Positions 3,579 to 33,638 of a stretch of DNA of 34,454 nucleotides are shown here, one piece after another. The translations under genes were made by a program, and so were the position numbers. How positions within the stretch are numbered: position 1 is the first letter of the stretch; each line of letters begins with the position of its first letter. This stretch comes from a virus, in IMG/VR virus record IMGVR_UViG_3300020176_000049, positions 1 to 34,454 of that record; one strand, 5' to 3'. The notes below the pieces were generated by a model. The model ran no database searches and was not told where the DNA came from. It was given only the letters and a program-made list of their open reading frames with translations.

Positions 3579-5069
3579 TTATAAACGACGCCTTACACTT
3601 CGGAACATCTTGCTTCGGGATTTTGCTTTACCGACGCCACCCGACCATTCGCCTTTTCCGCTTGCTCGTGCGCCCCAAGCCACGCCCGCCGTTTGATGGC
3701 TGAATTGGTCAACGGCGTGTGCCAATGCCATAACCAAGTCGTTGTGTGGGCCGGTGTCCACGATGTCCCCGCCTTTCCAAGCGTGGGCTTCCAATTCTTC
3801 CAGCATTTCCGAAACAACCCGCCTTGTAGCATCATCGCCATAGGGGAATACAATTTTGCCCCGTTCAAACCACACCCGCAATCGGTTCATCAGTGCTTGT
3901 TTCAATCCCTTGTTGCTTACTCGGCTTTGGCGATAATCAACATTGATTCCTTTTGCTTCCAGCAGACTTTGGAATAATCGTTGAAAGCCAACATCCTCAG
4001 CCGCAAGTGGCGCACTATACCTTTTGCACCATTCGCCTATCATGTCGGCTTGTCTATCGGGGGAAAAGTCATTTTTTCTCCAAATGTTTGCAACGACCAG
4101 CGAGCCATCGGATTCTTGCCGAACCAGCACCAAAACCGAGTAGTCTTTACCCAAACCTTGCGATGGGTCAAAACCAACGACATACCGACCTTCGCTACGC
4201 TTTTCTTTGTCAAACACCTGTTCCAAGTCCATGTTTGCTCGTGTGTATTTTCGTGGATAGACAGCGGCCTCATCGTCAATCACCTTACACAAAAATTCCT
4301 GTGCAAACTCCAAGTCTCCTGTCACTTTCTTTTGCTCTAAAAGAAAATCAAGCGGGCGAAACTCCGGCCAAAGCGCATACAGATTTTCCGGCTCGTGTTT
4401 GCTTTCATCCCAATTAGGAATAGCCGACCATGTGCCCGTTTTCCATTCGGGATTGTCCAGCATTTCTGTGTGGTATAAATCCATCATGCTCATCGGTGTG
4501 CCGACGCAGAACAAAAACGAACCGGGGTCAAGCATTGGCATGACAACCTTACGCAACCAATGGCGCAACTGTTCGTTGTTCAACTCTTTCTTTGCATCCA
4601 GCAACACATCGTCAAGTGCCACAACTGCGGGGTGGTCGCCACGAATGGCAGAACCGACGGAGGAACAGCGAATAACTGCCCCGTTGTTGAGCCACAATTC
4701 TTTTTTACCACCTTTTTTGCTGTCAATATACCTTGCCAACTCTTTGTGGGTTGTTAAGTCCTTTCTAATCTCAGCCAGCCGACGAACCGCTGTGTCCTGC
4801 GATGCCGAAAACAACCAAATGTCCATAGGTTTGCCATTAAACTTCTCAAACAAACACATGTGCAATAGTTTTACGCCAAGAGTAGTTGACTTGCTGTGAC
4901 TTCGTGGTGCAATAATACACACCCTATGCACATGGGCACCCTTCCTGTTGGTGTAAATGTTCATCCATTCGCCTATGTGGTCGCCCCAAGCGTAGCCAAG
5001 CCAACGATAAAAGTAGGAAACATCGTTTCTTGCTCGCTCAAAGGCTAATGCTGATTTGATTTGGGACAT
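3579..5069 (-). CDS. terL: Terminase large subunit
   Basis: A 496-aa DNA-packaging motor. The ATPase half shows a Walker A-type loop APRSHSKST at residues 54-62, a Walker B VVALDD at 149-154 and a coupling motif VGTP at 189-192. The RNase H-like nuclease half has Asp301 (GFDPSQG), Glu358/Asp359 (AAEDVG) and Asp444 (PHNDL), the expected acidic metal-binding set. It cuts concatemeric viral DNA and pumps it through the portal into proheads. The ATG at 5069 has GTGAT 5 nt upstream. It is the last gene of a minus-strand operon after a phosphoesterase and two tiny zinc-finger genes. No small terminase subunit was identified in the window. Length is normal for the family. Confidence 0.95.
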   Translation of the reverse strand: MSQIKSALAFERARNDVSYFYRWLGYAWGDHIGEWMNIYTNRKGAHVHRVCIIAPRSHSKSTTLGVKLLHMCLFEKFNGKPMDIWLFSASQDTAVRRLAEIRKDLTTHKELARYIDSKKGGKKELWLNNGAVIRCSSVGSAIRGDHPAVVALDDVLLDAKKELNNEQLRHWLRKVVMPMLDPGSFLFCVGTPMSMMDLYHTEMLDNPEWKTGTWSAIPNWDESKHEPENLYALWPEFRPLDFLLEQKKVTGDLEFAQEFLCKVIDDEAAVYPRKYTRANMDLEQVFDKEKRSEGRYVVGFDPSQGLGKDYSVLVLVRQESDGSLVVANIWRKNDFSPDRQADMIGEWCKRYSAPLAAEDVGFQRLFQSLLEAKGINVDYRQSRVSNKGLKQALMNRLRVWFERGKIVFPYGDDATRRVVSEMLEELEAHAWKGGDIVDTGPHNDLVMALAHAVDQFSHQTAGVAWGARASGKGEWSGGVGKAKSRSKMFRSVRRRL

Positions 5070-5131
5070 TGGGCATCACAAACATGTTCACTGGAAAATT
5101 CCAAAAAATATCAACCTTCAAAGACATACAT

Positions 5132-5254
5132 TCACGACCACGGCCTAAGCGAGCGCATATCACAATACGGACAAACCCTCGTATAAGCCTTGGCTTGAGA
5201 AAGAGATTTACTTTCCCATCCGCACGAATCGCATCGGACATGTTCACGCTTCAT
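5132..5254 (-). CDS. 40-aa zinc-ribbon microprotein
   Basis: A tiny protein with two CxxC pairs, CDSCGW at residues 8-13 and CPYCDM at 28-33, separated by a Lys/Ala-rich helix-turn. This is a complete four-cysteine treble-clef or ribbon site. GGTGAT lies about 6 nt before the ATG and pairs with the archaeal 16S 3' end. The start overlaps the stop of the preceding 48-aa gene. A different frame over the same bases (69 aa, 5038-5247) lacks such motifs and overlaps the terminase start, so it was rejected. The likely role is nucleic-acid or protein binding near the terminase; no precise function is known. Confidence 0.75.
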   Translation of the reverse strand: MKREHVRCDSCGWESKSLSQAKAYTRVCPYCDMRSLRPWS

Positions 5255-5390
5255 CACGAATCACCCTTGCTGTGCCGCAATACACCATTTTCTTTGTTTT
5301 TTTACACCATTTTTTATGTGTATTATAGCGGGAAAAATACTCGTGTCCACAGTTGTTGCATTTTCTTAACTTTTTGATTTGACCATTCAA
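5244..5390 (-). CDS. 48-aa zinc-finger microprotein (TTG start)
   Basis: A basic protein with CNNCGHEYFS at residues 11-20, then His25, Cys29 and Cys38. This matches a C2HC/C2H2-style finger (C-x2-C, aromatic, H-x3-C). The start is TTG, overlapping the TGA stop of the upstream phosphoesterase as TTGA, and GGAGG sits about 7-8 nt upstream inside the end of that gene. The 3' end overlaps the next microgene. Coupled start, good ribosome site and finger spacing together make this a real gene despite its size. It may act with the 40-aa protein as a DNA-binding packaging accessory; that role is inferred. Confidence 0.72.
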   Translation of the reverse strand: MNGQIKKLRKCNNCGHEYFSRYNTHKKWCKKTKKMVYCGTARVIRDEA

Positions 5391-6823
5391 TGCTGACCCT
5401 CCACGGGCGCAAAGAAGGTTGCAATCAAACCTTTTTCTTTGTCAATAAGATGAGCGGCCAATCCTGCTTGGCTTGTGGTGTAGCCTTGTCGTGCGTGGTA
5501 TCGGTCATGTCCTGCAAGCGACGGCAATTGAACAATCAAGCAACCGCCCTTTTCAACAACCTGTCGGTGATGCAAATGACCGTGGAACCAAGCGTGGTGT
5601 TCGCATTCTCCCCACAATTTTCTTTGTTCGTTGCTCATCAACTCAACGAGATTTCGTGCCCCGTCGCCATGAATAAAGCCCAACAAATTGTTGCCGTAGT
5701 GAACATATTGGCGGGTAGATGGACTGACAACAACTTCACAGTCCTCCACATTCTCATAGACAGCCGATAGATACATCATAAGAGCGATGGCAGACATACG
5801 GTCGTGGTTTCCGGGCATGAACACTACCTTGACAGGTGCAATTTGTCGTAGCAAGTCAATGTGTTCTCGTGCCAACTTACAGCCGGTCATAAGGATTTCA
5901 GCAGGACTTCCGCACATATCCTGTGGTGTGCCTTTGGTTGTTGTGCCAGCATCGGTATCAACATGGAACCAATCGCTACCCGTAGCCAAAATGATTTGTT
6001 CGGGGCGGGAAGGCAAGCGACAAAGCAACTCTTCGGTCTTTTCCATCAACCGCTTTCGGGCCTCGTTGAAGTTGTAAGTCTCACCGACTTCATCAACCCA
6101 TCCGTATTTGCCCCAATGAAAGTCTGTGGGGCTAATGACGAGGGAATAATCGGCCCCTTCGTCCACCATCATAATTTCCGGCACTTCGGGCAACTCGTCG
6201 CCAATCAACTGCTTAAACTCATTGAGAACCAGCGAAGAAAACATATCGTATTTTTCAGCCGATGATTCAATTTCTTTCCATTTGCGTCGTTCAAACTTCT
6301 CGTGCAGTAAATGTTTTTTCTTTAACACTAAATCTTCAACGAGTTGGTCAACATCAGTGGTGGCGATTTCTTCATCGGTGTAAGGGGACATATCGTGTGT
6401 CCACCCGTGGCGTCGGCGGTATTCGTCAAACCAAGCACGAGGAATGCCGAAGTCTCGTGTGATTTCATTCATGGAGGCACCTTTGCCAACCATGTTTGAG
6501 TAGGCTTCTTTCATGGCTCGGTGTTTATCACCACTGACAGACACCATTTGGTCGGCAATCGTTAAGAAAGTGTAGTAAGTGTCGTTAATGTCGTCGTAGT
6601 GGTATGATTTGTTCACATCAGCCGGTGGTTGAATAGGTTCCGCTGGCACCACTTTTTCGTTGCGTAGCCATCGGTAAATTGACATCTCCCACCCTTTGAC
6701 AGACTTCTTGGGGTCAATCCCGTGAAGAATGCGAGCGTTTTCCAACTTGCTCTTGTTGCTGTCGTAGTGCTTGGCGATGAGGTCATATCCGTATTCGGGT
6801 GTCGCTCTCATAGTTAAACGCAC
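5387..6823 (-). CDS. Metallophosphoesterase with HTH-like N-terminus
   Basis: A 478-aa protein. The C-terminal half is a calcineurin-like phosphoesterase: Asp234/His236 (SPTDFHWG), GSDWFH at 282-287, GNHD at 338-341, His385 (FIHGDG) and GHLHHR at 415-420, so all metal ligands are visible. The N-terminal 200 residues hold two helical segments that resemble helix-turn-helix units (about 28-55 and 117-140) and a charged helix at 160-205. The enzyme class cleaves phosphodiesters; the natural substrate could be DNA or nucleotides. The start is GTG at 6823, or ATG at 6811. A GATAAA-type box lies about 25 nt before the GTG. It heads the operon that ends in the large terminase, the place where a small terminase is often found. 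Confidence 0.88.
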   Translation of the reverse strand: MRLTMRATPEYGYDLIAKHYDSNKSKLENARILHGIDPKKSVKGWEMSIYRWLRNEKVVPAEPIQPPADVNKSYHYDDINDTYYTFLTIADQMVSVSGDKHRAMKEAYSNMVGKGASMNEITRDFGIPRAWFDEYRRRHGWTHDMSPYTDEEIATTDVDQLVEDLVLKKKHLLHEKFERRKWKEIESSAEKYDMFSSLVLNEFKQLIGDELPEVPEIMMVDEGADYSLVISPTDFHWGKYGWVDEVGETYNFNEARKRLMEKTEELLCRLPSRPEQIILATGSDWFHVDTDAGTTTKGTPQDMCGSPAEILMTGCKLAREHIDLLRQIAPVKVVFMPGNHDRMSAIALMMYLSAVYENVEDCEVVVSPSTRQYVHYGNNLLGFIHGDGARNLVELMSNEQRKLWGECEHHAWFHGHLHHRQVVEKGGCLIVQLPSLAGHDRYHARQGYTTSQAGLAAHLIDKEKGLIATFFAPVEGQH

Positions 6824-9344: not shown

Positions 9345-11687
9345 ATGCCCGATGTTCGTGATGGCGAAAGCCGTGACGCTTACATGGATAGGTGCATGGG
9401 TGACGATAAGACCGTAGCAAAATACCCAAGCACACAACAGCGTGCGGCTGTCTGCAACTCTATGTATGACGAGGCGCAAAGCGAAACTGTTGAATCCGCC
9501 GAATATCAAGGAAAAAAGGTGACGCTCAACAAACCGTTCCGCACCTCCGGTGGCCCTAAGAAATTTGCCGTGTATGTGCAAAACGAAGCCGGTCGTGTTG
9601 TGATTGTTCGCTTTGGCGACCCCAACATGGAAATCAAGCGTGATGACCCACAACGGCGCAAAAACTTCCGAAGTCGCCACAACTGCGACAGTCCCGGCCC
9701 ACGAACCAAAGCACGCTATTGGTCATGCCGACAATGGGAAGGTGGGCGCAAGGTTGAAGCGGAAAACGGCGAATCCTATGATGCAAAAAGAGCATGGTTG
9801 CTCTATGATGAATGGATGCAAAACGAAGGAGAAATCCTTGAAGGAATTGAAGAAGTCGTTGAGGCTGAGGAAGGTGGCTGTGGTTGTGGTTGCACAGAAG
9901 CCGTTGAAGCCAAAATGATTCGTCGCGATGTTTTTGATAATCCCGGCGAAGCGCAAAGCCGAGCAAAAGAGTTAGGTCTTGATGGCATTCATTCTCATAA
10001 GGAAGGTGACGATACTGTGTTTATGCCCGGTAAGAGTCACGAAGAATACGAGGAAAAAACAGGAAAAAAACTCGCATCCTATCACGAAGATGAGGATGAA
10101 GAAAAAACCGCTGGCTATGATAAAAAGATGAAGGCGTCGGAAGAATGCCCCATCGGAGAAGAAATGGTCAATGGTACCTGTAAGCCGGTCAATGTCACAA
10201 TGGAAGCATCCGTTGAATCCATTAGCGCAACTGTTGAGGCATCCACAGGCAATACTATTATGGAAATAAAAGGTGTTGCTTTCCATGAGGGTTTCAACAA
10301 GAACAAGTGGGCCTTGACAAAGCGTGGTGCCGAAGCCACCGTCAAGCAAATGTTTGGTGCAGACTTAACCCTTAACCATCCAAAGCCAAAGGCTGTTGGC
10401 TTTGAGCGCAACACCGATGGCGGCGTCAACGAAGCCAATGTTGGTATTGTGGCGTCTGCTGAAATGGATGACAAAGGAGAAGAGGGGTATGAAGTCCGCT
10501 ATGTTGCCCATGTCGCACGAAGCGAATTGTTTGAGGCTTTGGAGTCCGGTATGTGGCTTAAGCCCGACTACGGTGTATCTATTGGCGGCTACGGCGTTCC
10601 CATCTCAGCAAATGAAAAAGGCATGGTCTTTGACATGGACTTTACCTTTGACCATCTCGCCATCGTCCACAAGCCCGCTTATCCACGCGCAACCATTGAA
10701 AGTGCGGTAAAGATTGAAGAGACAGTTGAAGCGAAGCACGGAGGACAGCATGGACGACCCGGCCCCAATGACCCACGCAAAACGCCAGCCAAGCCAAGCG
10801 AGCGACGGCGTGGTTCTAAGAAAAATCCACCCGGTTCAGCCAAAAAACCCAATAAATCAATTGTTGTGTCGCCCGCTACCCGTAAGACCATTCAAAACAA
10901 AATGCAGGAACATAACAAGAAGGGTAAAGGTAGTAAAGCCTCTATGGGTGCGCTTCTTACTGTGTTCCGTCGTGGTGCTGGTGCTTTCTCCACAAGTCAC
11001 GCCCCTAACATGTCCCGCAACGGTTGGGGTATCGCACGAGTCAATGCTTTCCTTTACCTTCTACGAACCGGTAGGCCATCTAACCCCAACTACAAGCAAG
11101 ACAATGACCTTCTTCCCAAAGGGCATCCTCGCGCTCGCAGAACAGCCTCCACCGAAGAAACCTTGATAAGTCAAACCGCTTCTCACACAGAATACCGAAA
11201 GGAGAACGACATCATGTCCGAAGAACATATTGTTGAAGAAAACGCTCAAGCGAGTGAAATGGAAGCCCTTCAAGCAGAATTGGTGCTTGCCCGTGCAGAA
11301 TTGGAAAACATGCGTGCTATGGAAGCCGCAAAGCACGAAGAATCCCGCCTGTCCCTCGTTGAAGCCGCAACCTCCCTCGGCATGAAGGGCCACGAAGACC
11401 TTTCCTCCGAAACCCTTGAGTCCATCATCGCCTCTTGGAAGGAGAGCCACCCCGAACCTGTTGTGGACATGAAGCCCGCTGAACCTGCCGTGGCTTCCGA
11501 AGAATCCTCCCCTGCCCCTGTCTCCGAGAAGGTCGTTGCAAACTACCTTAACGGTAAAATGGTGGAGACTCCCGAATCCCTTTACAGCCAAGCATGGAAC
11601 GCTTGGGCATCCGCTTGGAACAAGACGCTTTCCGGTGTTGAAACCAGCGACGACCGCATTCGTGCCCCACGATTTGAACAACTTTGA
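9345..11687 (+). CDS. Prohead protease-scaffold polyprotein
   Basis: A 780-aa multidomain protein. Residues 1-45 form a short Cys-containing domain (MDRCMGDD, AAVCNSMYDE). Residues 54-135 form a compact domain with KPFRTSGGPKKF and RRKNFRSRHNCD. Residues 165-285 are acidic, with Cys clusters GCGCGC and CPIGEEMVNGTC. Residues 303-455 match a herpes/HK97-type serine protease, with likely His345 (LNHPKP) and Ser412 (VSIGGYG). Residues 465-598 are very basic and include GAFSTSHAP and DNDLLPKGHP. Residues 624-780 are a helical scaffold. It should process itself and the capsid proteins during maturation. The ATG lacks a clear ribosome site; an A/T-rich GATTAAAAG lies about 27 nt upstream. The accessory domains are unusually many for this family. 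Confidence 0.82.
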   Translation: MPDVRDGESRDAYMDRCMGDDKTVAKYPSTQQRAAVCNSMYDEAQSETVESAEYQGKKVTLNKPFRTSGGPKKFAVYVQNEAGRVVIVRFGDPNMEIKRDDPQRRKNFRSRHNCDSPGPRTKARYWSCRQWEGGRKVEAENGESYDAKRAWLLYDEWMQNEGEILEGIEEVVEAEEGGCGCGCTEAVEAKMIRRDVFDNPGEAQSRAKELGLDGIHSHKEGDDTVFMPGKSHEEYEEKTGKKLASYHEDEDEEKTAGYDKKMKASEECPIGEEMVNGTCKPVNVTMEASVESISATVEASTGNTIMEIKGVAFHEGFNKNKWALTKRGAEATVKQMFGADLTLNHPKPKAVGFERNTDGGVNEANVGIVASAEMDDKGEEGYEVRYVAHVARSELFEALESGMWLKPDYGVSIGGYGVPISANEKGMVFDMDFTFDHLAIVHKPAYPRATIESAVKIEETVEAKHGGQHGRPGPNDPRKTPAKPSERRRGSKKNPPGSAKKPNKSIVVSPATRKTIQNKMQEHNKKGKGSKASMGALLTVFRRGAGAFSTSHAPNMSRNGWGIARVNAFLYLLRTGRPSNPNYKQDNDLLPKGHPRARRTASTEETLISQTASHTEYRKENDIMSEEHIVEENAQASEMEALQAELVLARAELENMRAMEAAKHEESRLSLVEAATSLGMKGHEDLSSETLESIIASWKESHPEPVVDMKPAEPAVASEESSPAPVSEKVVANYLNGKMVETPESLYSQAWNAWASAWNKTLSGVETSDDRIRAPRFEQL
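11214..11687 (+). CDS. Nested in-frame scaffold protein (internal start)
   Basis: An internal ATG at codon 624 of the protease polyprotein is preceded by AAAGGAGA with about 9 nt spacing, a better ribosome site than that of the full-length frame. It would give a 157-aa acidic, helix-rich protein (EMEALQAELVLARAELEN coiled-coil-like, Pro/Glu linker, then SLYSQAWNAWASAWNK near the end). This is the same arrangement as the lambda C/Nu3 protease-scaffold pair. Such scaffolds fill the prohead and are degraded by the protease. The nested start is seen in sequence; its use is inferred. Confidence 0.6.
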   Translation: MSEEHIVEENAQASEMEALQAELVLARAELENMRAMEAAKHEESRLSLVEAATSLGMKGHEDLSSETLESIIASWKESHPEPVVDMKPAEPAVASEESSPAPVSEKVVANYLNGKMVETPESLYSQAWNAWASAWNKTLSGVETSDDRIRAPRFEQL

Positions 11688-19383: not shown

Positions 19384-19421
19384 CAACCGCAAGGTAGAAA
19401 GAACACCGAAAGGTGAACACC

Positions 19422-20399
19422 ATGAGTGGATTTAACAACCGATATGTTTCCATTGTGAAAGAAACGACTTACGGGACTGACCCCGGAAGCGGAGAAGTGT
19501 ACGGCGAAGTTGACGACGAGTCCATCAAGCACACCTACGATGTCCTTCAACGCACGGACATGAGCCGCTACGGAACGGCTAAGTCCAATACGGGTAAGGA
19601 GTTTTCCGAAGGCGACATCAACCTCGCTATGACCACGGACGACTTTACCGGCCTCGTGCTTTCGGGTCTGTTCCCAACGGACACCGTGACCGGTTCCGGC
19701 GACCCTTACACCCACACCTTTACCGAGGCTGGCACCGACCGTTCTTTTACCGTCAAAGTTGGCCGTGAAGAAAAAGAACACACCTACACCGGTGTTGCCA
19801 TTGACAGTCTTTCTGTAAGCGCAAACATCAACGAATACGCTATGGTCACTGCCTCCATGATGGGCAAGGCAGAAAGCGTAGTTGGTACCCTCAGCACCCC
19901 AACCTTTGCCGACCGAGCCGCCCTGTATTTCTCCGATGCCAAGATTTTCTTCAATGGCAACGGAACGGCTTCCAACCTCGTGAAATCCATCTCCTTTGAC
20001 ATCTCCCTTAACCGTGATGGCGACAACGCCTGTGGCCTCGGTGATGCAACCTATGTTCGCCTTCCACCAAGCCAACGCCGTGAAATCAGCGGAACGATTG
20101 AGTTTAACAAGATTATTCACACGGCAGTTTCCGACGAGCCAACCTACACGCAATTGACTTCCGCTGACGGCCACGAGTTGTCCGGCAGTGGTGTTGAGTT
20201 AAAGGTTCAATTTGGCGACGAAAGCACCGCCGACATGATGGTATTCAACTTCTACAAAATCCGCTTTGAAGCACCCGACGCCAATGTGTCGGGCCGTGAT
20301 ACGCAAACCATGTCTGTGCCATTTATTGCTCTTTACAGCACCACCGATAACAAGATGATGGATGTTGCCATGAAGAACGCTACATCCGGTGCTTACTGA
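19422..20399 (+). CDS. Major tail tube protein
   Basis: A 325-aa beta-rich protein, starting with ATG 19422 because AGGTGA lies 6 nt ahead (an in-frame GTG at 19413 is less likely). It opens with NNRYVSIVKETTYGTDPGSG, a segment common at the start of phage tail tube proteins, and carries GVAIDSLSVSANINEYAMVTASMMG, close to the tube-protein core where a strand pair is followed by a loop. Tube rings stack along the tape measure. The gene lies between tail terminator and tail chaperones, as in siphoviruses, and no sheath gene is present. Confidence 0.8.
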   Translation: MSGFNNRYVSIVKETTYGTDPGSGEVYGEVDDESIKHTYDVLQRTDMSRYGTAKSNTGKEFSEGDINLAMTTDDFTGLVLSGLFPTDTVTGSGDPYTHTFTEAGTDRSFTVKVGREEKEHTYTGVAIDSLSVSANINEYAMVTASMMGKAESVVGTLSTPTFADRAALYFSDAKIFFNGNGTASNLVKSISFDISLNRDGDNACGLGDATYVRLPPSQRREISGTIEFNKIIHTAVSDEPTYTQLTSADGHELSGSGVELKVQFGDESTADMMVFNFYKIRFEAPDANVSGRDTQTMSVPFIALYSTTDNKMMDVAMKNATSGAY

Positions 20400-20409
20400 G
20401 GTGGTTTGA

Positions 20410-20604
20410 TTGGCAAACAACGGCGGCACAGCGATTCCCGACAAGACCAAATTAACGGTCTTGACCTTTGAGGGAACAGCCGCCGCTGTGACCACGGCTT
20501 TGCGAGCCGCAATCGCAAACGACGACATCATTATCAATGCGTCTACAAGCAGAAAGAAAGACAGCAACACCGTGATTTGCACAGTTGTTGCGATTATAGC
20601 ATGA
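20410..20604 (+). CDS. Small beta-type protein after the tube gene
   Basis: A 64-aa protein starting at TTG with GAGGTGG 5 nt upstream. It has strands KLTVLTFEG and NTVICTVVAII around an Ala/Thr helix (AAVTTALRAAIAND). Unknown family. The very strong ribosome site argues for real expression, perhaps as a tail accessory. Confidence 0.6.
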   Translation: MANNGGTAIPDKTKLTVLTFEGTAAAVTTALRAAIANDDIIINASTSRKKDSNTVICTVVAIIA

Positions 20605-20644: not shown

Positions 20645-21007
20645 ATGCCTGTTTTGACAAAAGAGTTTGAATTAGACGATGGAACAAAAATCACCTGCCG
20701 ACAAGCAGGTGGTATGACCAAGTTAAGGATTGAGAACATCCAAGCACGAGTTTTTCGTGACCACATGCACTTTGGTTTGGACACCTCCGAATGGACGGAA
20801 GAACAACAGAAGCAGTTTGCCGAAGCCTTGGAAAAGGAAGGCGCAGGTCTTGAATCCCAAATGCGTGAATGGATTCCTCGCTCAATCATTGAGCCAAAGG
20901 ACTTTGATGTGGATTCGCTGACCAGCGAAGAGTTGCGGATGATTCTTGGCTTCGTGCGTGGGGACGACCCGGATGGTGCGCCCCCTTTGGACAATTCTTC
21001 CGAGTAG
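20645..21007 (+). CDS. Tail assembly chaperone (G-like)
   Basis: A 120-aa protein. The start resembles T4-like/lambda-like G proteins: KEFELDDGTKITCRQAG, then helices (EEQQKQFAEALEKEG) and an acidic end (RGDDPDGAPPLDNSSE). It lies right before the tape measure gene, as such chaperones do. A slippery heptamer 20983-20989 near its 3' end permits a -1 shift into the next frame to yield a longer G-T type product. The ribosome site GAAGTGA is about 7 nt before the ATG. It should coat the tape measure during tail assembly. Confidence 0.7.
   Translation: MPVLTKEFELDDGTKITCRQAGGMTKLRIENIQARVFRDHMHFGLDTSEWTEEQQKQFAEALEKEGAGLESQMREWIPRSIIEPKDFDVDSLTSEELRMILGFVRGDDPDGAPPLDNSSE
20983..20989 (+). promoter_or_regulatory. 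-1 ribosomal frameshift site CCCTTTG
   Basis: The heptamer C CCT TTG fits the X-XXY-YYZ rule in the frame of the upstream chaperone gene. Slipping one base back keeps CCC and TTT pairing. The zero frame stops six codons later (21005-21007), while the -1 frame is open from 20908 to 21291. The downstream frame's own ATG (21022) has no ribosome site. This is the common tail-chaperone recoding signal of long-tailed phages. Confidence 0.65.
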
Positions 21008-21291
21008 CACCAACGCTGTGCATGGCCTACAAAGGCACCCTTCCCTCCGAGTTGTGGGACAGGTATGATGGCGAAGGCGGTCAAGAGCGCATGACCATTG
21101 ATTTGCTCGTGGCTATGGACATCAACGACAAAATCACCGAAGCGACCGGCAAAGCCAAAAAGAAATTTGACGGTAAAGGTATGGTGGCTCGTCGCAACCA
21201 AAAGCGACAACAACGCCAAGTCTTAAACGACAATGAAAGTGTAGCCTTTTTACAGGGCTTAGGCTTGCCCTTAGAGCGTAGCGATAGTTGA
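20986..21291 (+). CDS. Tail chaperone T-domain, made by -1 frameshift
   Basis: In the -1 frame the sequence continues GQFFRVAPTLCMAYKGTLPSE and so on to the stop at 21291, giving about 100 residues joined to the first 115 of the G-like protein (about 215 aa). The T part contains GTLPSELWDRYDGE, a match to the short helix-loop of lambda T-like domains, and a Lys-rich helix. Independent translation from ATG 21022 would give 89 aa, but no ribosome site is visible. The product should guide tape measure folding and tube polymerisation. Confidence 0.62.
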   Translation, partial: FGQFFRVAPTLCMAYKGTLPSELWDRYDGEGGQERMTIDLLVAMDINDKITEATGKAKKKFDGKGMVARRNQKRQQRQVLNDNESVAFLQGLGLPLERSDS

Positions 21292-21305: not shown

Positions 21306-24300
21306 TTGATAGAAGCATTGTTCCTATCCTTCATGCCCGTGGTGCTTATTTTCGCCACAGTCACCATGCTCGTTCTGCGAGCCGGTGCATCCCGTATTTT
21401 CTTTGATGTCGTCGGTTCGTTCCAAGCCACGCGATTGATTGGTGACGCCCAAGCAAAAATCACTGTCTTACAGGGATTGATGCTTGACGGTTTGTCGGGT
21501 ATCACCGAAGGTCTTGGGCTTATCGGTGAACAAATCCAGCAGGTCGTAGATAGCACCGTTCCCCTTGCGAAAGAGTTGGGGTTCGCTCGGATTGAGTTTG
21601 AGAAATTCGTGCAAGCGGGGGACGACGCCGAGTTGTTGGCTGGACAGATTGAAAACCTCGGTTCACAGTTTGGTTTCACAGCCGACCAAGCCCTCGCCGC
21701 CGGTGCCAAGATGGCGCAGTTGTCGTCGGTTGTGGGTGGTGGTGCCGCTATCCCTGCCGCAACCGAAGTCGGTATTGCTTTCGGTATGATTGGTGGTATG
21801 CAGACCGAGGAAGCCATGAAGCGGTTGATTGCACTTCAACAGCAGACCGGCTTCATGTATGGTGAATTGACGAAGGCTCAATTTGACACACTGTCCTCAC
21901 AGAAGCGGGTCAATGTGATTCGCCAAGAGAGCGTCAAGATTCTTAACCAACTGAACACCGTTGAAAACCGTTCGTCGGCAACGATGGCTCAAGTGACCCA
22001 TGTTATGAACCAATTCGCTTCGTCGGCCAAGTTGGCTGGCGACGATTTGTCCTACATGGCCGCCATGTCGGCTACACTGATTGAAGCCGGTGAAGAACAG
22101 GGTAAAGCCGGTCGTGCGCTCAAGATGATGTATGCTCGGCTTGGTGCCGACACAGGCAACAACAGCGAGATTCTGCGGAAGTATGGTATTGAGACAAAGG
22201 ATGCTGATAAGAACCTGCGGTCAATGCACGACATTTTGGCGGACATCTCCGCCATTTACCCACAACTGTCAAGCCGACACCGAATGGAAATCGCACAAGC
22301 GATTGCTGGCAACGACCACTATGTTCGTGCTATCAAGTTGATGGACGGCTACCAGCGAAGCCTTGAATTGAACAGTATGGCTATCCAAGAGTTGGATGCC
22401 GCCAGCGATGAATTGAACATCCGTTTCAAAGACGAGGCGTTCCTGCTACAACAGGCTGAATCGCGATTGACGGATGCAAAGGCCGCAGTTGGTGGGATTT
22501 TTACGCCAGCCGTGATTCGTGCCACGAACGCACAAGCGGCACTGAATGAGCAATTCGCTGAGTTTGCCTCGCAAGACGATGGCTTCGGCAGGGTCTTTGG
22601 GGCGATTGCTGATGGCGTCGTGAGAATGCAACAGATGGGGAAGATTTTTGCCCCAATGGTAGAGGCCAACCTCAACATGATGAGCCTTACGGTGTCCCTG
22701 CAAACGCAGTTGCAGATTCAGCGCGCTATCGCCGGTCAAGACCTTGTGAAAGCCAGCGCATACGGCCAACAGGGTGCTTTGGCCCGTGCGAACCTTGAAA
22801 CCATAGAATCCACGGCACAGGTTGAGAATCACCGTGCATTGACCGCCGTTTCCCTGTTGCGTTTTGACAAGCAACGCTTTGACGCACAACAAGCCCTGCT
22901 CAACATGGGAGGCCAAGACCTGCAAAATAACCGTTCAAAGTTGTTAGACCAGCGGTTGATTATCCAAGGTGAAATCAAAGAGATGGAAGCCAAGAAGAAC
23001 AAATTGGAAATTCACAGGCTTACCAATTCTGCTTATTATAAGGGTAAAATGACAAGAGAAAGAAACCTCAAACTTGAAATTGATAACCTCCAAGCGGCGA
23101 AGAACAGTGTGCGACTTTCGCATGAAGATGCGATTCTTGAAGAATTAAAACTAAAATACAAGCGATTCCAAAATGTGGAAAACGAGAAAATAAAAGGCTA
23201 TGACGACAGCGCACCAATCAAAAAGCGGTATCTTGTTGAGATGGAGAAGCGTGAAGTTGAAATCGCAACCACGATGGCTAACCTTGAAGAACAAATTGTC
23301 CAAAAAGAAAGGGAACGACTACAAGTTAAAAATAACCTTAAATTTACTGACCAAGCGGCACTGAACGCCAAAAAGCAGGAGTTGTCCGACAATGCTAAAT
23401 TGCTGGCACAGGAAGGACGACAGAACATACAATCTTTACAAAACGCTACGGCGATTCAAGGGGAAACACAAGCCGCCAAAATCTTACGCAACGCTCACAT
23501 GGAGATTATCTCCATCACGATGCAAAAGTCGTCTGCCGAGAATCAAAACAACCTCATTATGGAACAGGCCGAAAAAGCCGCACGAGAGTTGGCTATGGCG
23601 TATGGTCTTGACGAAGGGGCCCTGCGTAAATTGATTCCTCAATTGGCAATTTTCCGAAACGCTTTGGGTGCTGTAAAAGTCCAAACGAAACAGACCGTGG
23701 ATGCGGCCATGTTTATGAACATGAAGTTGATGCAATTAACCGGAGGTTTTGGTGCCGCAAGCATGGCGTTGTCCATGTTTTCCGAAGATGAAAAAATGGC
23801 CCGCGCAAGCATGGTTTTGATGAATCTAAGCATGATTCCGATGACCTTACAGATGGTCACGGCGACGAAGGCATCCTTCGGACTTATGACCGGATTAAAC
23901 GGCGCAGGTAAGGCCGCTGGTCTTGCGGCGTTCAACATGAGAGCGTTAAACAAAGCGTTTATTGCGTTCGGTAAGGCGACCGTTGTGATTGGAATTATTT
24001 CCTACATCGCTTACAAATTGATGCCCGACATGGACGACGGTGCTGACTCCCTTACTCAATCATTTGATGGGATGACCCGCTCGGCTCTCTACGCTGGCGA
24101 GGCATACCGTAAAATGGCCTCATCCCTTGAAATGACCGACCTTCAAGGCGTTCAGCAAATGCGAGTTGACACCGAGCAAGCGATTGCCGACATCCAATCC
24201 GACATGGCGAACATCACCGAGCCAGCGTTGTTGCGAATCAAGCAAGAACAGTTAGACGCTTTGAAGGAAGAGTTGCAGGTTCTCCAAGACATTGAGGCTG

Positions 24301-24998
24301 TGCGTCAAGCACAGGCATTGTCAAACGACCTGTCGGAAGCCGAAGAATTGTTCAACGCCGCTCAAGCCTACAAAAATGCCAACGAAGAATTTTTGAAGCA
24401 ACAAGCCAAAGGAGAAACAATTGGCGGAAAAGTCTTTGGCTTCTTTGAGGATGTCGTGGCTGAATCTGCGATTGAGGGTGCCGGTGGCGCATTCGGTTTG
24501 GAATACGAAACGCACGAGGAATTGGTAAGACGCTTGGGTGAGGAAGCGGCGGCTTCGTTTGCGGCCATCCCTGCTGAATATCAAGGTGCGGTGCTTGAAG
24601 CGGCGTTGATGGCCGAATCCATGCCCGACTTCTTGGACATTTTAGACCGGGACTTCCGTGAATTCCAACAGGACAACGAAGCAAACGGCTTCGGTTTTGA
24701 CGGTGCCGGTGCTAAAATTGAAGAAGAATTCATCGGGCCCATTGAAGCGGCAAGAGAAGCCGCCTTTGAGTTTAGCAACGCTCGTGAGGAAATGTTCTTC
24801 GGGATGGCAAAGGGCAACATCACTGGCGACATGGTAAAGCAAGTTGTGAACAAAGGTGTGGAAACGCTGGTTGCCAGCACCGAGGTCATTATGACCAACA
24901 ACTTCAACGGAATGACGACCACACAGGCGGCAAACGAAATCACGAAGCAAGTTGTAGAGCAGTTGAACGGTTTGGGACTCAACATCCCCAACGCATAG
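21306..24998 (+). CDS. Tail tape measure protein
   Basis: A 1230-aa helix-rich protein starting at TTG (an in-frame stop lies just upstream). Near the N-terminus is a hydrophobic stretch (LFLSFMPVVLIFATVTMLVL, about residues 5-24). A second one lies near 890-905 (VIGIISYIAYKLM). Residues 130-450 hold the typical conserved tape-measure region (QALAAGAKMAQLSSVVGGG, GEEQGKAGRALKMMYARLG). Residues 545-760 form long charged coiled coils. At about 1.5 angstrom per residue the tail would be near 180 nm, a rough estimate. It sets tail length and may enter the host envelope. Confidence 0.92.
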   Translation: MIEALFLSFMPVVLIFATVTMLVLRAGASRIFFDVVGSFQATRLIGDAQAKITVLQGLMLDGLSGITEGLGLIGEQIQQVVDSTVPLAKELGFARIEFEKFVQAGDDAELLAGQIENLGSQFGFTADQALAAGAKMAQLSSVVGGGAAIPAATEVGIAFGMIGGMQTEEAMKRLIALQQQTGFMYGELTKAQFDTLSSQKRVNVIRQESVKILNQLNTVENRSSATMAQVTHVMNQFASSAKLAGDDLSYMAAMSATLIEAGEEQGKAGRALKMMYARLGADTGNNSEILRKYGIETKDADKNLRSMHDILADISAIYPQLSSRHRMEIAQAIAGNDHYVRAIKLMDGYQRSLELNSMAIQELDAASDELNIRFKDEAFLLQQAESRLTDAKAAVGGIFTPAVIRATNAQAALNEQFAEFASQDDGFGRVFGAIADGVVRMQQMGKIFAPMVEANLNMMSLTVSLQTQLQIQRAIAGQDLVKASAYGQQGALARANLETIESTAQVENHRALTAVSLLRFDKQRFDAQQALLNMGGQDLQNNRSKLLDQRLIIQGEIKEMEAKKNKLEIHRLTNSAYYKGKMTRERNLKLEIDNLQAAKNSVRLSHEDAILEELKLKYKRFQNVENEKIKGYDDSAPIKKRYLVEMEKREVEIATTMANLEEQIVQKERERLQVKNNLKFTDQAALNAKKQELSDNAKLLAQEGRQNIQSLQNATAIQGETQAAKILRNAHMEIISITMQKSSAENQNNLIMEQAEKAARELAMAYGLDEGALRKLIPQLAIFRNALGAVKVQTKQTVDAAMFMNMKLMQLTGGFGAASMALSMFSEDEKMARASMVLMNLSMIPMTLQMVTATKASFGLMTGLNGAGKAAGLAAFNMRALNKAFIAFGKATVVIGIISYIAYKLMPDMDDGADSLTQSFDGMTRSALYAGEAYRKMASSLEMTDLQGVQQMRVDTEQAIADIQSDMANITEPALLRIKQEQLDALKEELQVLQDIEAVRQAQALSNDLSEAEELFNAAQAYKNANEEFLKQQAKGETIGGKVFGFFEDVVAESAIEGAGGAFGLEYETHEELVRRLGEEAAASFAAIPAEYQGAVLEAALMAESMPDFLDILDRDFREFQQDNEANGFGFDGAGAKIEEEFIGPIEAAREAAFEFSNAREEMFFGMAKGNITGDMVKQVVNKGVETLVASTEVIMTNNFNGMTTTQAANEITKQVVEQLNGLGLNIPNA

Positions 24999-31000: not shown

Positions 31001-31887
31001 CTCTTGAGCGCGACCAAACCAAAGAGAAGGGCGGCTTAGGTGGCTATCTGTTCCCATCCGTCGCCCGTGGTCGGGGACAACAGGCATCCAGCGGTCAAGT
31101 TGGCGGTGGCTCGTCCCGTGAGCGGCCACGCCCCCCACGCCCACCCGTCGGGCCGCCAGTTTCGGGTGGCATCGGGACAAACCCCGTAACTCCGGCTCGC
31201 CTTGAAGGCGGTAGGTCGCAAAGCGTTCAAGATGCGTTCCTCAAGACCTTCAACAGCAACACGATGGCTTCATCTTCCTACGGCAACACGAAGGGTCGCA
31301 TGGACTTCTTGGAAATGGGCGTTTCCGAGTCCTCCTTTGGCGTTCTTGGGCAGAAGCGCACCCCACCCCCCATGAACACGCAACGGGCCGTAGACGGCCT
31401 CGGAAGCGACATCCAAGCGGCATCCGCCACGGCGTTGTCGTCGTCGGAGGGTATGGTGTTCACGGGAGTCGTCAATCCCGAATCCAGCAACCGCTACACA
31501 CAGACGCACGCCATGAGCGTGAAGGTGCCCGACGATGTGTCCGACGAAATCCTCACCATCAACGGGATGTATTCGCTCGGTGGCGACGGGACAACGAAGG
31601 CCGTCTTGACCGTTGATGTTGAATGCCTTGAAACCGGCTCTACGAATTCACGCACCATCACCTTGAGCGGAAACCAAGAGAAGCGTGCCTTCCCGATTTT
31701 CACAACGAGTCTCAACGGTGCATCCACAGCAGGGAATACCATCAGTGTATCAATCAAGCGAACGCCCGGAACAGGCGATGACGACGCCGACTACTCGTCG
31801 TTGGTGGTTCACAATGTCGCCGTGAATTTCCAGCGGTTCAGCATCAAGGGATTCGGAACCTCATCGTTGGGCTTCAAGCCTTATTGA
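25015..31887 (+). CDS. Giant tail hub/tip protein with lectin domain
   Basis: A 2290-aa protein. Residues about 300-465 look like a concanavalin/LamG sandwich (FYTLKIGFPVN, AWFDLDFKLDYTNNKFKVYH). Residues 470-565 carry a hub segment with SITVFDDDTEQ, RPLWSGIIESVSV and INISARDSLSLLDRQ. A large middle region (565-1500) is mostly beta modules including GVKGLSIDHASGEAV. Residues 1500-2004 hold the second hub part (MFSILRESVEATG, EIRPTYNLGEV, ITNIDWRVDGRDIEQVSLSLERD). A Pro/Arg linker near 2035-2050 leads to a C-terminal domain. It probably forms the tail tip and binds the host. The ribosome site GAAGTGAG is 4-6 nt before ATG. Confidence 0.82.
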   Translation: MTRTGTSKYGFWLAGYYEDWLGSRVIADDNNQPSTDGAYNADETHHGNLLNGEAPLNPRYRWSVRDRANNNEFSSASSYLLSNDGIARWATFDSNRLSKGARWAGRSQIQYPNSNTNANRVRYDKAGVASTDDTYMLITGSADSSIRYYIPGGDTDPTHGRESRYEFNKLNWAASKAGRSSNSAHPDWNNYAHLTGVWTGERLNMAAYDPTTGNAFAHEDHAEVIFLPIVSPSKKPFLAITTYSEDGNAHRLDNQTPSGQYRPIIASSANLNSKSDGDYFTIRLSTQMMMGDYDQTPPSSFGEPTEGKGFYTLKIGFPVNTTWGATGSGGGTAAIEWTIQPDTGEGLSGGVGRYHMYFSGGDKVGTLNDKDAWFDLDFKLDYTNNKFKVYHDGTEVTGSNTAGGSYSSGYTMNNNSQTTAAFLPSELTGWELFMQNSGITNTFNRMVVVTMIDRVALYRPLTDMPDGTALPAPVNSWTCTMPVNGVSQASITVFDDDTEQNLTPWFTSDDITDWRLLMFSGNIDRPLWSGIIESVSVKQLADDRTRQINISARDSLSLLDRQITSWEIGQVGLGSSDQVLSRQAEVDLLSESMFMGAARMKETQTTLGFESATSYTELATQRTQLNTAHPIQMYNNEDLAGPNSVENEWMGYKVKGINKETGGLTQVIMAHGSTGYTTSDTPDIYGTADHNAEGKTITSIDNTPFGVSGNQALEYSSSDIPYVPNATNGSGILQGDRSTYPTTGAESGYVILTFSEQPIKSDGTALKVGDIITVSENGNGGTDPAAGFYTTVATQSHGGKFYVKTDVTSGSLPVITGRSVDYTFEEGFVSDTDDPQLLYRDQHAVWMRDLPKSAWFKKHFGVYGFQSVDAGTAQAAFTADSDVIQVSSSFIDSSETHGVGQVINSDGFVDTFTYNGYISPADDGNHYLVGVKGLSIDHASGEAVYTLSTGIDYKHIWLQWADMRNNGDADADGGYRKKNFGLIKPVKENYDVTISFADQFNDDGSYDEFTDLKIGDDLDIWELDGEIDPTTNAPWSTPLGDGPTIQLSTVIAEDAGGIEFALVTADSGVSDLAVGDKVIIFNSDNYDGIHTISSLTVGSPTATKTLFKCSTTPFTSSEPLTATGPFLRKAEVGHRESVLRDWEDTGGSLLVYDCSKFFNLNTFINSGTFGQRSGGTVNIGDYETEYHGFPILMDSYWLQASSTVSNNAVPYGFQENFRRWIGSTAELNRTINLADTVIETKPSTSAIADFADNGFGKMKATRGSGSQNPSFEIFWYVYDGKLDTSVVESATSTASGSGMTITCSGADFVNDGVKAGMRVRNVTAKWVAQISSVTATTIVIDGTPTAESGSTRQDVALSDSISIPQQLYGIYTEPDAATNRSTTNAEAYLEGILMDDVIKSNGSTAQIALNQQGQTNAAGAFDEVIIVGSVSPRYALRFLMKIDGHVVAPNIGTYWLSDKARFLWSLNLSKTWLAQSAISCWFDHGSIPLTINQTTDGTDANFDSFGAPYDARGGKSMFSILRESVEATGFGFDNSKRLPITYQMGRDNKLEIRPTYNLGEVVNRDILTVSSLDAQMSGHITNVRVYYNNGASFADHPAPTLNQTYRWKIVEIPEITSEQEAEAVAKEEYFKAKTKAIRVKGDVMRDLTHDDKMLDKGRYGYIADPTRHAENGVNADWIERFISWPYFPGYANRKNWDWAAYNGTLAQGMCNGLDGNLGRQNGSDSFYRERFGKGYVTPGGSLNDTDTYGDHYWWWGAHSLSHAVQVVHIPSGCPLTSDTTTDEHLRVWVALKDGQTGTDIDNAEFTIGLTDFAFDEAVPGQFPNFFTRAGFPTLTPTLEGTSSSFTTVNVKRNGFYEVDIPSTYWLSQPSGAKIIVSVNVDYLKSLLYHRCGDPSASGILHNAHDITNFGPSAWAATNSESIFPLGARKYDNMTGLMGARNAWYCPRVHIVEDIRWRPATTVTFTDSGLGLSSESMVITNIDWRVDGRDIEQVSLSLERDQTKEKGGLGGYLFPSVARGRGQQASSGQVGGGSSRERPRPPRPPVGPPVSGGIGTNPVTPARLEGGRSQSVQDAFLKTFNSNTMASSSYGNTKGRMDFLEMGVSESSFGVLGQKRTPPPMNTQRAVDGLGSDIQAASATALSSSEGMVFTGVVNPESSNRYTQTHAMSVKVPDDVSDEILTINGMYSLGGDGTTKAVLTVDVECLETGSTNSRTITLSGNQEKRAFPIFTTSLNGASTAGNTISVSIKRTPGTGDDDADYSSLVVHNVAVNFQRFSIKGFGTSSLGFKPY

Positions 31888-32593
31888 TGAAGTCCTTGCG
31901 AAGAGAAAGCACACGCTTGGCCTGTTTGTGGCTGATGCCGCTTACTTTTACCATTTCTTTTTGCCGAGTCTTTTTCTGCAACAGCACGCTGATTGAGCCG
32001 TAGTGTTCCAACAGGGCGACGGATTGTTCCCGTGAGATGCCGCACCCCATTAACGCCTTGACCCTATCATCGGTTTCCTCAACGATAACCTGTTCGGGTT
32101 TGTGTGCCTTTGGTGGTTTTACTTTTGCAATAACATTTTGTCGGTGGTTGATGTAGAGCCATTCCACGAAGTCGTCCATCGTCGTGAGTTGAAGGAAGTG
32201 CAACTTGGGGAATCGTTGGTGCATCGTCAACTTGAACGAATGGATAACCGCCGCCATCTTGCGTCGTTCTTCCGACAATTCTCGTGCCGTCGGTTTGCGT
32301 CCGTGAAACCACGGCTTCAACTCGGTGTTGTAGACCACGAGGAATGGCTTCTCAAACGATTCGCATAAGTCGGTGAGTTGTCCAACGATTGTGCGGGAAC
32401 GACCGATACCGAGAATGCTACGGTAAAGGTCATTGATTTCCTTCGCCTCAATTCCCCAATCACCAAGCACATAGTCTCCGGTGTTCATTTGCAGGGTGCG
32501 GGCGTGGCCTCGTTCGTCCTTATCGGCATCTCCCAACTTGACCAGCAATTTGTGAATCAGTTTGGGGTTCTCACGGTGGTCAATAAGAAGCAT
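31874..32593 (-). CDS. XPF/ERCC4-type nuclease
   Basis: A 239-aa structure-specific endonuclease. The catalytic domain starts at the N-terminus: Asp5 and Arg7-Glu8 (LLIDHREN), GD at 39-40 (MNTGDYVLGD), the GIEAK at 48-51 standing for the ERK motif (second residue is Ala, not Arg), and Asp55. The C-terminal part (about 175-230) is a pair of helix-hairpin-helix units (LMGCGISREQSVALL, VSGISHKQAKRVL). It would cut branched DNA in replication or packaging intermediates. GGAGGT lies about 13 nt before the ATG. The 3' end overlaps the tail hub gene by 14 bp. Archaeal viruses often carry this nuclease. Confidence 0.85.
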   Translation of the reverse strand: MLLIDHRENPKLIHKLLVKLGDADKDERGHARTLQMNTGDYVLGDWGIEAKEINDLYRSILGIGRSRTIVGQLTDLCESFEKPFLVVYNTELKPWFHGRKPTARELSEERRKMAAVIHSFKLTMHQRFPKLHFLQLTTMDDFVEWLYINHRQNVIAKVKPPKAHKPEQVIVEETDDRVKALMGCGISREQSVALLEHYGSISVLLQKKTRQKEMVKVSGISHKQAKRVLSLRKDFINKA

Positions 32594-32618: not shown

Positions 32619-33638
32619 TCAATCTATGGTTCCGTCATAACGCCAGCACTTGCCTTCGCACATCCCACGCAGGTTATACCAGCGGCAGGACGGGGCGTTT
32701 GCGTAGCCAATGTTGGTGCGGATGCCCTGTCGGCTTTTGTGTTCATTCCAATTGTCCCAATTAAGACTTTTAAGGTAAGAGAAGATGGTGTCCTCAATCT
32801 CCCGTCGTTGTTCTTGGGAAAGTGTAGATGGGTCAGCGAACCACCGCAACTCTTGACTCATGTGTTGGACGAGAGCCACACGGACTTCGTGCGTTGGACT
32901 GTTGGCGTTGATGGCCTTCTCAAGACATGGCATGATAGGGACATCACCTGCTGAACCGACTTCTCCCGTGAAAGGTTGCATCTCCACCTTCGGCGGCGGG
33001 TTGTTGGTGACCCACATCACGAAGTCAAAGTCGCTATTGTTGGGCTTACCGAAGAACGGACAATACTCGTTCCATTCCTTGACGGGATGCTTGGGGATTT
33101 TGAAACCGTCGTCAAGGATGGCCTTCGGGGGAATGACGACCGCCCACCGCTTGCGGGTGCAGTTGTAAGTGTTCGGAATACGAGTTAATTTTGCGGGAAA
33201 AGCGAAGCCGTCCAGCGTCGGAAGGCCGTCGCTCATCATTCGTTGGTATCGCTGTAAATGCGTATCAAAATCTCGTCCCACCACAGGTCGGCTGAACAAT
33301 TGGTGAACATGAAATCCACGACCCGTGGCAACAACTCGGCAATCTCCTCCCAAACGGGTGAGCAATTCACGAACATCGCTCTTGACCTGCTCAATGTCGC
33401 CTCGCTCGCCAGCGTCAAAGTCCCACCACGCGCGGTCTATGATGGCTGTTGTTGTATCAACCTTCCACGACTTTGTGCGCTCTACATCACGGAAGGCGTA
33501 GAGCGAGGTGTAGAGATTGCTTTTACCGTTAAGTCTCCCGATGTAGGTTCGGAGTTGTTCTCGGCTTTTGCACAGGGAACGCTTGAGCCCCATTTCACGA
33601 GGGAATGAAATTAGTCCAGCGTCCATCGGTGTCCACAT
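32619..33638 (-). CDS. AEP primase with PriL-like iron-sulfur end
   Basis: A 339-aa protein. The catalytic half shows DFD at residues 73-75, GRGFHVH at 106-112 and RIPNTYN at 153-159, the three motifs of archaeo-eukaryotic primases. The C-terminal part has Cys238 (MPCLEKA), Cys318 (APSC), Cys327 and Cys331 (MCEGKC), with His250 between, the spacing of the PriL four-cysteine iron-sulfur domain. So it joins PriS- and PriL-like parts in one short chain and should make primers for viral DNA synthesis. The first ATG overlaps the zinc-ribbon gene by 28 bp; ATG at 33626 (codon 5) or codon 16 is also possible. Confidence 0.87.
   Translation of the reverse strand: MWTPMDAGLISFPREMGLKRSLCKSREQLRTYIGRLNGKSNLYTSLYAFRDVERTKSWKVDTTTAIIDRAWWDFDAGERGDIEQVKSDVRELLTRLGGDCRVVATGRGFHVHQLFSRPVVGRDFDTHLQRYQRMMSDGLPTLDGFAFPAKLTRIPNTYNCTRKRWAVVIPPKAILDDGFKIPKHPVKEWNEYCPFFGKPNNSDFDFVMWVTNNPPPKVEMQPFTGEVGSAGDVPIMPCLEKAINANSPTHEVRVALVQHMSQELRWFADPSTLSQEQRREIEDTIFSYLKSLNWDNWNEHKSRQGIRTNIGYANAPSCRWYNLRGMCEGKCWRYDGTID

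Follow-up and report, generated by a model that had tools for sequence, protein, structure and literature searches.

A conserved CCCTTT(G/A/T) heptamer points to programmed -1 ribosomal frameshifting in a probable tail assembly chaperone gene of a marine, likely archaeal, virus group

In phage lambda, two overlapping frames between the genes for the tail tube and tape measure proteins are expressed through a -1 ribosomal frameshift at the slippery heptamer GGGAAAG, yielding a short tail assembly chaperone, G, and a C-terminally extended one, GT, both missing from mature virions. Most long-tailed phages have an equivalent of this frameshift (reviewed in PMC5009743). In archaea, one cellular -1 case, alpha-L-fucosidase, is well studied (PMC8211752). 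Among haloarchaeal tailed viruses, -1 frameshifts have been described for HCTV-1, HCTV-2, HCTV-5 and HVTV-1 (PMC5009743, PMC8211752) and for Hardycor1, at the heptamer G_GGA_AAT (PMC7911831), while a +1 frameshift has been described for HSTV-2 (PMC8211752) and proposed for the HF1 group (PMC7230728). Here we analyse the 34,454-base IMG/VR record IMGVR_UViG_3300020176_000049, the whole of which is referred to as the window. A preliminary description of this DNA, made from its letters alone, had put forward a -1 slippery heptamer in a tail chaperone gene and had called such frameshifting sparsely documented in archaeal viruses, a fair statement given the handful of cases just listed. Comparative evidence strongly supports the proposal: we put at roughly 0.93 the probability that the window carries a tail assembly chaperone gene of the lambda G/GT type expressed by programmed -1 ribosomal frameshifting, and it is very likely, judging from the sequences, that this one gene gives the virus two tail chaperones, one short and one long.

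The heptamer, C_CCT_TTG, lies on the + strand at 20983-20989, close to the 3' end of an open reading frame (ORF) at 20645-21007 (+). This zero-frame ORF (ORF1) encodes 120 residues that, on the evidence of a structural model and of relatives, probably form the 'G' part of the chaperone, and its TAG stop at 21005-21007 (+) would end the short product. ORF1 reads the site as ..CCC CCT TTG GAC.., so that its phase is X_XXY_YYZ. Nothing interrupts the -1 frame between a point 25 codons 5' of the heptamer and the stop at 21289-21291, so both the phase and the open -1 frame on either side are as first described. Translation of this frame after a slip would add a 'T' part (20990-21288, +), supported by its -1 periodicity, a 42-member alignment and a helical model, to give a predicted fusion of about 214 residues. 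The window alone is weak evidence, because in-phase X_XXY_YYZ heptamers occur about once per 350 codons (28 in its 9,842 codons); the chance of one falling within the last 8 codons of the gene is about 2% on this count, and the case rests on relatives.

Relatives were gathered from IMG/VR in four scans, three using ORF1 or alignments of it and one using the -1 part, with at most 80 loci obtained per scan (loci L002-L164; the last scan counted 197 relatives). After removal of duplicates, 89 distinct sequences contained the whole site, and 57 representatives were defined at less than 88% identity. Identity to ORF1 among relatives is 53-97%. CCCTTT(G/A/T) is found in phase in 88 of the 89 distinct sequences (72 CCCTTTG, 9 CCCTTTA and 7 CCCTTTT), the remaining one having ACCTTTT. 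Seven further loci, first passed over by a motif filter, likewise carry CCCTTTG, and the heptamer is present in L056 and L082, whose open -1 frames end at contig edges. The preliminary description had held that loss of the heptamer from relatives with both frames kept would refute slippage; a single relative of this kind, L087, was seen and is considered below.

Codon choice at the site allows slippage to be set against the possibility that the heptamer is kept purely for the protein, as Pro-Leu in frame 0 or Pro-Phe in frame -1. The slip-site Pro is indeed invariant and Leu is common. However, the residue before the site may be V, I, P, L, T, C or A, and across all seven its codon has the form NNC in 56 of the 57 representatives, C-ending codons being otherwise in the minority for these residues. 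On a tree built with the site excluded, this residue changes 17 times and the third base of its codon once. At the slip Pro no codon but CCT is used in the 57 representatives, against a CCT usage of 45%, and its third base shows 0 changes on the tree where the median ORF1 codon third base shows 18. The A-site codon alternates between Leu (TTG, TTA) and Phe (TTT) with a constant TT start; since Z varies among G, A and T, TTT survives even the replacement of Leu by Phe. Ranked by synonymous identity among 108 columns, the three site codons stand 2nd, 1st and 5th. These patterns indicate that selection acts on the slippery nucleotides themselves, and with no other evident route for translating the -1 frame, conservation for the protein only appears extremely improbable. 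A separate ORF1 column, 37 codons 5' of the slip Pro (about 20873-20875) and occupied by Ile, Val or Leu, ranks 3rd of the 108 with a synonymous excess of 0.83.

The same alignment bears on slippage by RNA polymerase, which would generate a mixed mRNA population from the C5-T3 run. While a CCCCC run does precede TTT in the window, most relatives have just CCCTTT (ATCCCTTT, GTCCCTTT), a run too short for a process that usually requires about nine A/T, and what is conserved is the tRNA re-pairing pattern X_XXY_YYZ. Slippage at the level of transcription is thus a very remote prospect.

Support for a ribosomal frameshift also comes from the pattern of variation on the two sides of the site, since in the relatives the heptamer is the exact point at which codon periodicity moves from frame 0 into frame -1. 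Over the preceding 42 nt, variation is 0.47-0.51 at zero-frame third positions versus 0.10-0.20 elsewhere; beyond the heptamer, it is 0.49-0.56 at -1 third positions versus 0.18-0.38 elsewhere. In all 57 representatives a -1 stop lies 3-25 codons 5' of the site, and 87 of the 89 sequences contain no start codon between that stop and the heptamer, the other two having a TTG. The zero-frame stop itself wanders (TAG, TAA or TGA, at a distance of 3-11 codons when counting starts at the Pro codon), its position and identity varying where the heptamer stays constant. The -1 frame of the relatives is therefore under protein selection without an initiation signal of its own.

Were the two frames separate genes, the TAG at 21005 would be followed by re-initiation or coupling at the ATG at 21022-21024 (+), where the -1 ORF would start without any part played by the heptamer. 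This ATG is the first possible start (ATG, GTG or TTG) of the -1 frame in the window's open stretch, it lies 14 nt 3' of the zero-frame stop, and 27 of the 57 representatives have an ATG at the same position. In the other 30 the position codes for Ser or Gln, with 5 changes on the tree. In addition, no Shine-Dalgarno (SD) sequence precedes this ATG: the best 8-mer pairing with the anti-SD is +0.8 kcal/mol in the window, against -3.5 kcal/mol at the ORF1 start, and the median is +0.4 against -3.5 kcal/mol, in agreement with the early observation that the second frame lacks a ribosome site of its own. Between heptamer and ATG, codons that a start at 21022 could not reach are under protein selection in the -1 frame, and a separate start leaves the invariant heptamer unexplained. 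On this evidence ATG 21022 is most likely an internal Met codon, and expression from two independent starts is highly improbable.

The genomic context is that expected from the preliminary description, which had placed the gene pair ahead of the tape measure gene. The two frames sit between genes for the tail tube protein (19413-20399, +; PF18906, E 1.3e-23; phrog_290 minor tail protein, E 7.4e-28) and the tape measure protein (21306-24998, +; PF10145, E 4e-17), and in all 7 relatives tested the pair is likewise followed by a PF10145 tape measure gene. The site, its phase and conservation, the switch of frame and this gene context can all be read off the DNA directly. Between the tail tube and chaperone genes the window also has a 64-residue ORF with a TTG start (20410-20604); ORFs of similar size, of two sequence types, occupy the same place in most relatives checked.

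To what family the product of ORF1 belongs was examined through its predicted structure. ORF1 was modelled with AlphaFold2 on the basis of 34 relatives (predicted local distance difference test score, pLDDT, 88), and the best match of the model among 350,542 PDB chains was a weak one, to the HK97 tail assembly chaperone 2ob9 (Foldseek E 0.045, prob 0.92). In VIA, 2ob9 scored Z 5.5, again weak, and 3klu (YqbN) came second with Z 5.0, while the BFVD matches of the model include several annotated tail assembly chaperones (E 0.01-0.5). A sequence search of the PDB with ORF1 gave no match. Each score is weak; what speaks for this identity, we suggest, is the first rank of a chaperone in an independent fold test. 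The -1 part is predicted to be helical, with long helices, and a fold search with the extension returned a single significant match, to an unnamed protein.

From these data we infer slippage itself, at a rate that would leave the longer product in the minority, together with the chaperone function and the role of an SD-like element. Most ribosomes would read ORF 20645-21007 to its TAG and release the 120-residue G chaperone. In a minority, tRNA-Pro on CCT and tRNA-Leu on TTG would slip by -1 onto CCC and TTT, and these ribosomes would continue to 21291 to make the GT fusion, whose predicted tryptic peptide across the junction in the window virus is GDDPDGAPPLGQFFR. Pairing of 16S rRNA with the SD-like element, which reads GGAGG in many relatives and GGATGGTG in the window, probably makes the ribosome pause. 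If the two parts act as in lambda, G would associate with the tape measure protein and T would bring in subunits of the tail tube.

The SD-like stretch, at 20971-20978 (+) in the window and reading GGAGGG in many relatives, was recognised through codon choice. Among relatives, pairing with the anti-SD of 16S rRNA far exceeds that in synonymous shuffles between offsets -18 and -12, with z from -7 to -11 and about -10 at -14 to -12; in this comparison codons are treated as independent and relatedness is uncorrected, a subset of 26 sequences of less than 72% identity providing a partial control. At the SD-like codon GAG is used 31 times and GAA 9 times (31/40), the ORF1 background being 26% GAG, and CCG is used 14 of 21 times against a background of 16%; the GAG bias persists in the 26-sequence subset (12/16, p 5e-5). 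GGAGG, where present, ends 7 nt 5' of the heptamer in 21 of 22 cases, and the window's own stretch is weaker than the GGAGG of its relatives. By analogy with E. coli dnaX, in which an SD-like sequence likewise lies 5' of a -1 heptamer, the element may be a stimulator of slippage.

A second potential stimulator, the weak GCAC/GTGC stem noted downstream in the preliminary description, is present at 21007-21010 and 21018-21021 but unconserved. All 4 pairs form in just 9 of the 57 representatives, and 150 of 228 cells are paired, against 125 for a slide of +2, and the stem was rejected as a stimulator. Also rejected was a helix proposed by RNAalifold between the heptamer and CAAAGG about 40 nt further on, both sides of which are fixed for other reasons and show no covariation. 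The region downstream folds no better than shuffles in the window (z +0.62). In synonymous controls on the relatives the mean z is about 0 to -1.1; there is no peak, the values close to the site (-0.3 to -0.7) being much like those further along. An Rfam search of the region gave no match.

Several of these observations weigh against frameshifting in a chaperone gene. In absolute terms the resemblance to the chaperone fold is weak (E 0.045, Z 5.5), and searches of PHROGs, Pfam and NCBIfam with ORF1 gave no chaperone family. A conserved downstream RNA structure was sought in the window and its relatives and none was found, and the 7-nt spacing of the SD-like element is shorter than in E. coli dnaX, where it is roughly 10 nt. 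Finally, L087 has A_CCT_TTT (4333-4339) with both frames intact, the sole relative seen without the full heptamer; its look-alikes L157 and L161 keep CCCTTTT, from which it follows that one base has changed, or been misread, in L087.

Thus, as in lambda, a -1 shift between overlapping frames, situated between tail tube and tape measure, is predicted to yield a short and a C-terminally extended product. Unlike the case in lambda, no similarity in sequence between the proteins and a known family is detectable, and the heptamer is CCCTTTG, preceded by a codon-selected SD-like element. With HCTV-1, HCTV-2, HCTV-5, HVTV-1 and Hardycor1 the locus shares a -1 slippery heptamer in the gene pair before the tape measure gene of a head-tailed virus, here a probably archaeal one, whereas it differs in its heptamer, C_CCT_TTG/A/T, in the marine virus group concerned and in the roughly ninety sequences of evidence. 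In HSTV-2 and the HF1 group the gene position and role are the same but the shift is +1, while the present family is -1 throughout. Compared with dnaX, the spacing between GGAGG and heptamer is 7 nt and there is no conserved downstream stem-loop, and the part of the SD-like element as a stimulator is putative.

This type of frameshift is therefore already known in haloarchaeal tailed viruses. What is new is the virus group, the depth of comparative support, a candidate SD stimulator and the heptamer: no report of CCCTTTG/CCCUUUG as a tail slippery site was found in the literature searched, outside which lie most subscription journals and a 2004 survey of phage tail frameshifts. Since knowledge of archaeal recoding otherwise comes from the single well-studied cellular -1 case and a few predictions for haloarchaeal viruses, a firm, testable and probably archaeal case has value. 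Through codon choice alone, some ninety relatives reveal selection on slippery nucleotides; the locus also offers a route to annotating as one fused tail protein what gene callers divide, and supplies a candidate stimulator for testing.

The long relatives are 60-74 kb, and the window record is probably a fragment. A Hef-like ERCC4 nuclease is encoded in the window and in 8 of 12 long relatives; among 14 control genomes the ERCC4 family was matched in the four archaea only. PolB, which is not archaea-specific, is encoded by 12 of 12 long relatives, and PCNA was found in none of the 12. One scan of GTDB genomes with the chaperone alignment gave no provirus, and among phage records there was no relative of ORF1 or of the portal, and terminase matches were distant only. 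The host is likely archaeal, perhaps Poseidoniales. Magrovirales and Adrikavirales have been described (PMC10768690, PMC12999244, PMC13108676), and the present group is assigned here to neither. A marine archaeal tailed-virus family with one fixed heptamer, CCCTTT(G/A/T), read on an archaeal ribosome with help from an SD-like element and without a downstream structure, is a tentative picture to which we would give slightly less than even odds.

Other genes of the window were noted in passing. At 31874-32593 (- strand), an ERCC4 plus helix-hairpin-helix protein is similar to the C-terminal region of the archaeal Hef nuclease (NCBIfam NF010337, E 8.8e-11, short of the cut-off of that model). The protein encoded at 32619-33638 (- strand) has counterparts of 44-91% identity in each of the 12 long relatives and looks primase-like by eye (WWDFD, RGFHVH); Pfam, NCBIfam and PDB searches with it gave no match. 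A 780-residue protein at 9345-11687 shows several weak matches over parts of its length, among them DUF5824 and a stretch resembling a head maturation protease (phrog_7015, E 0.03). The terminase large subunit and a metallophosphoesterase-like protein are encoded at 3579-6823 on the - strand, opposite to the other morphogenesis genes.
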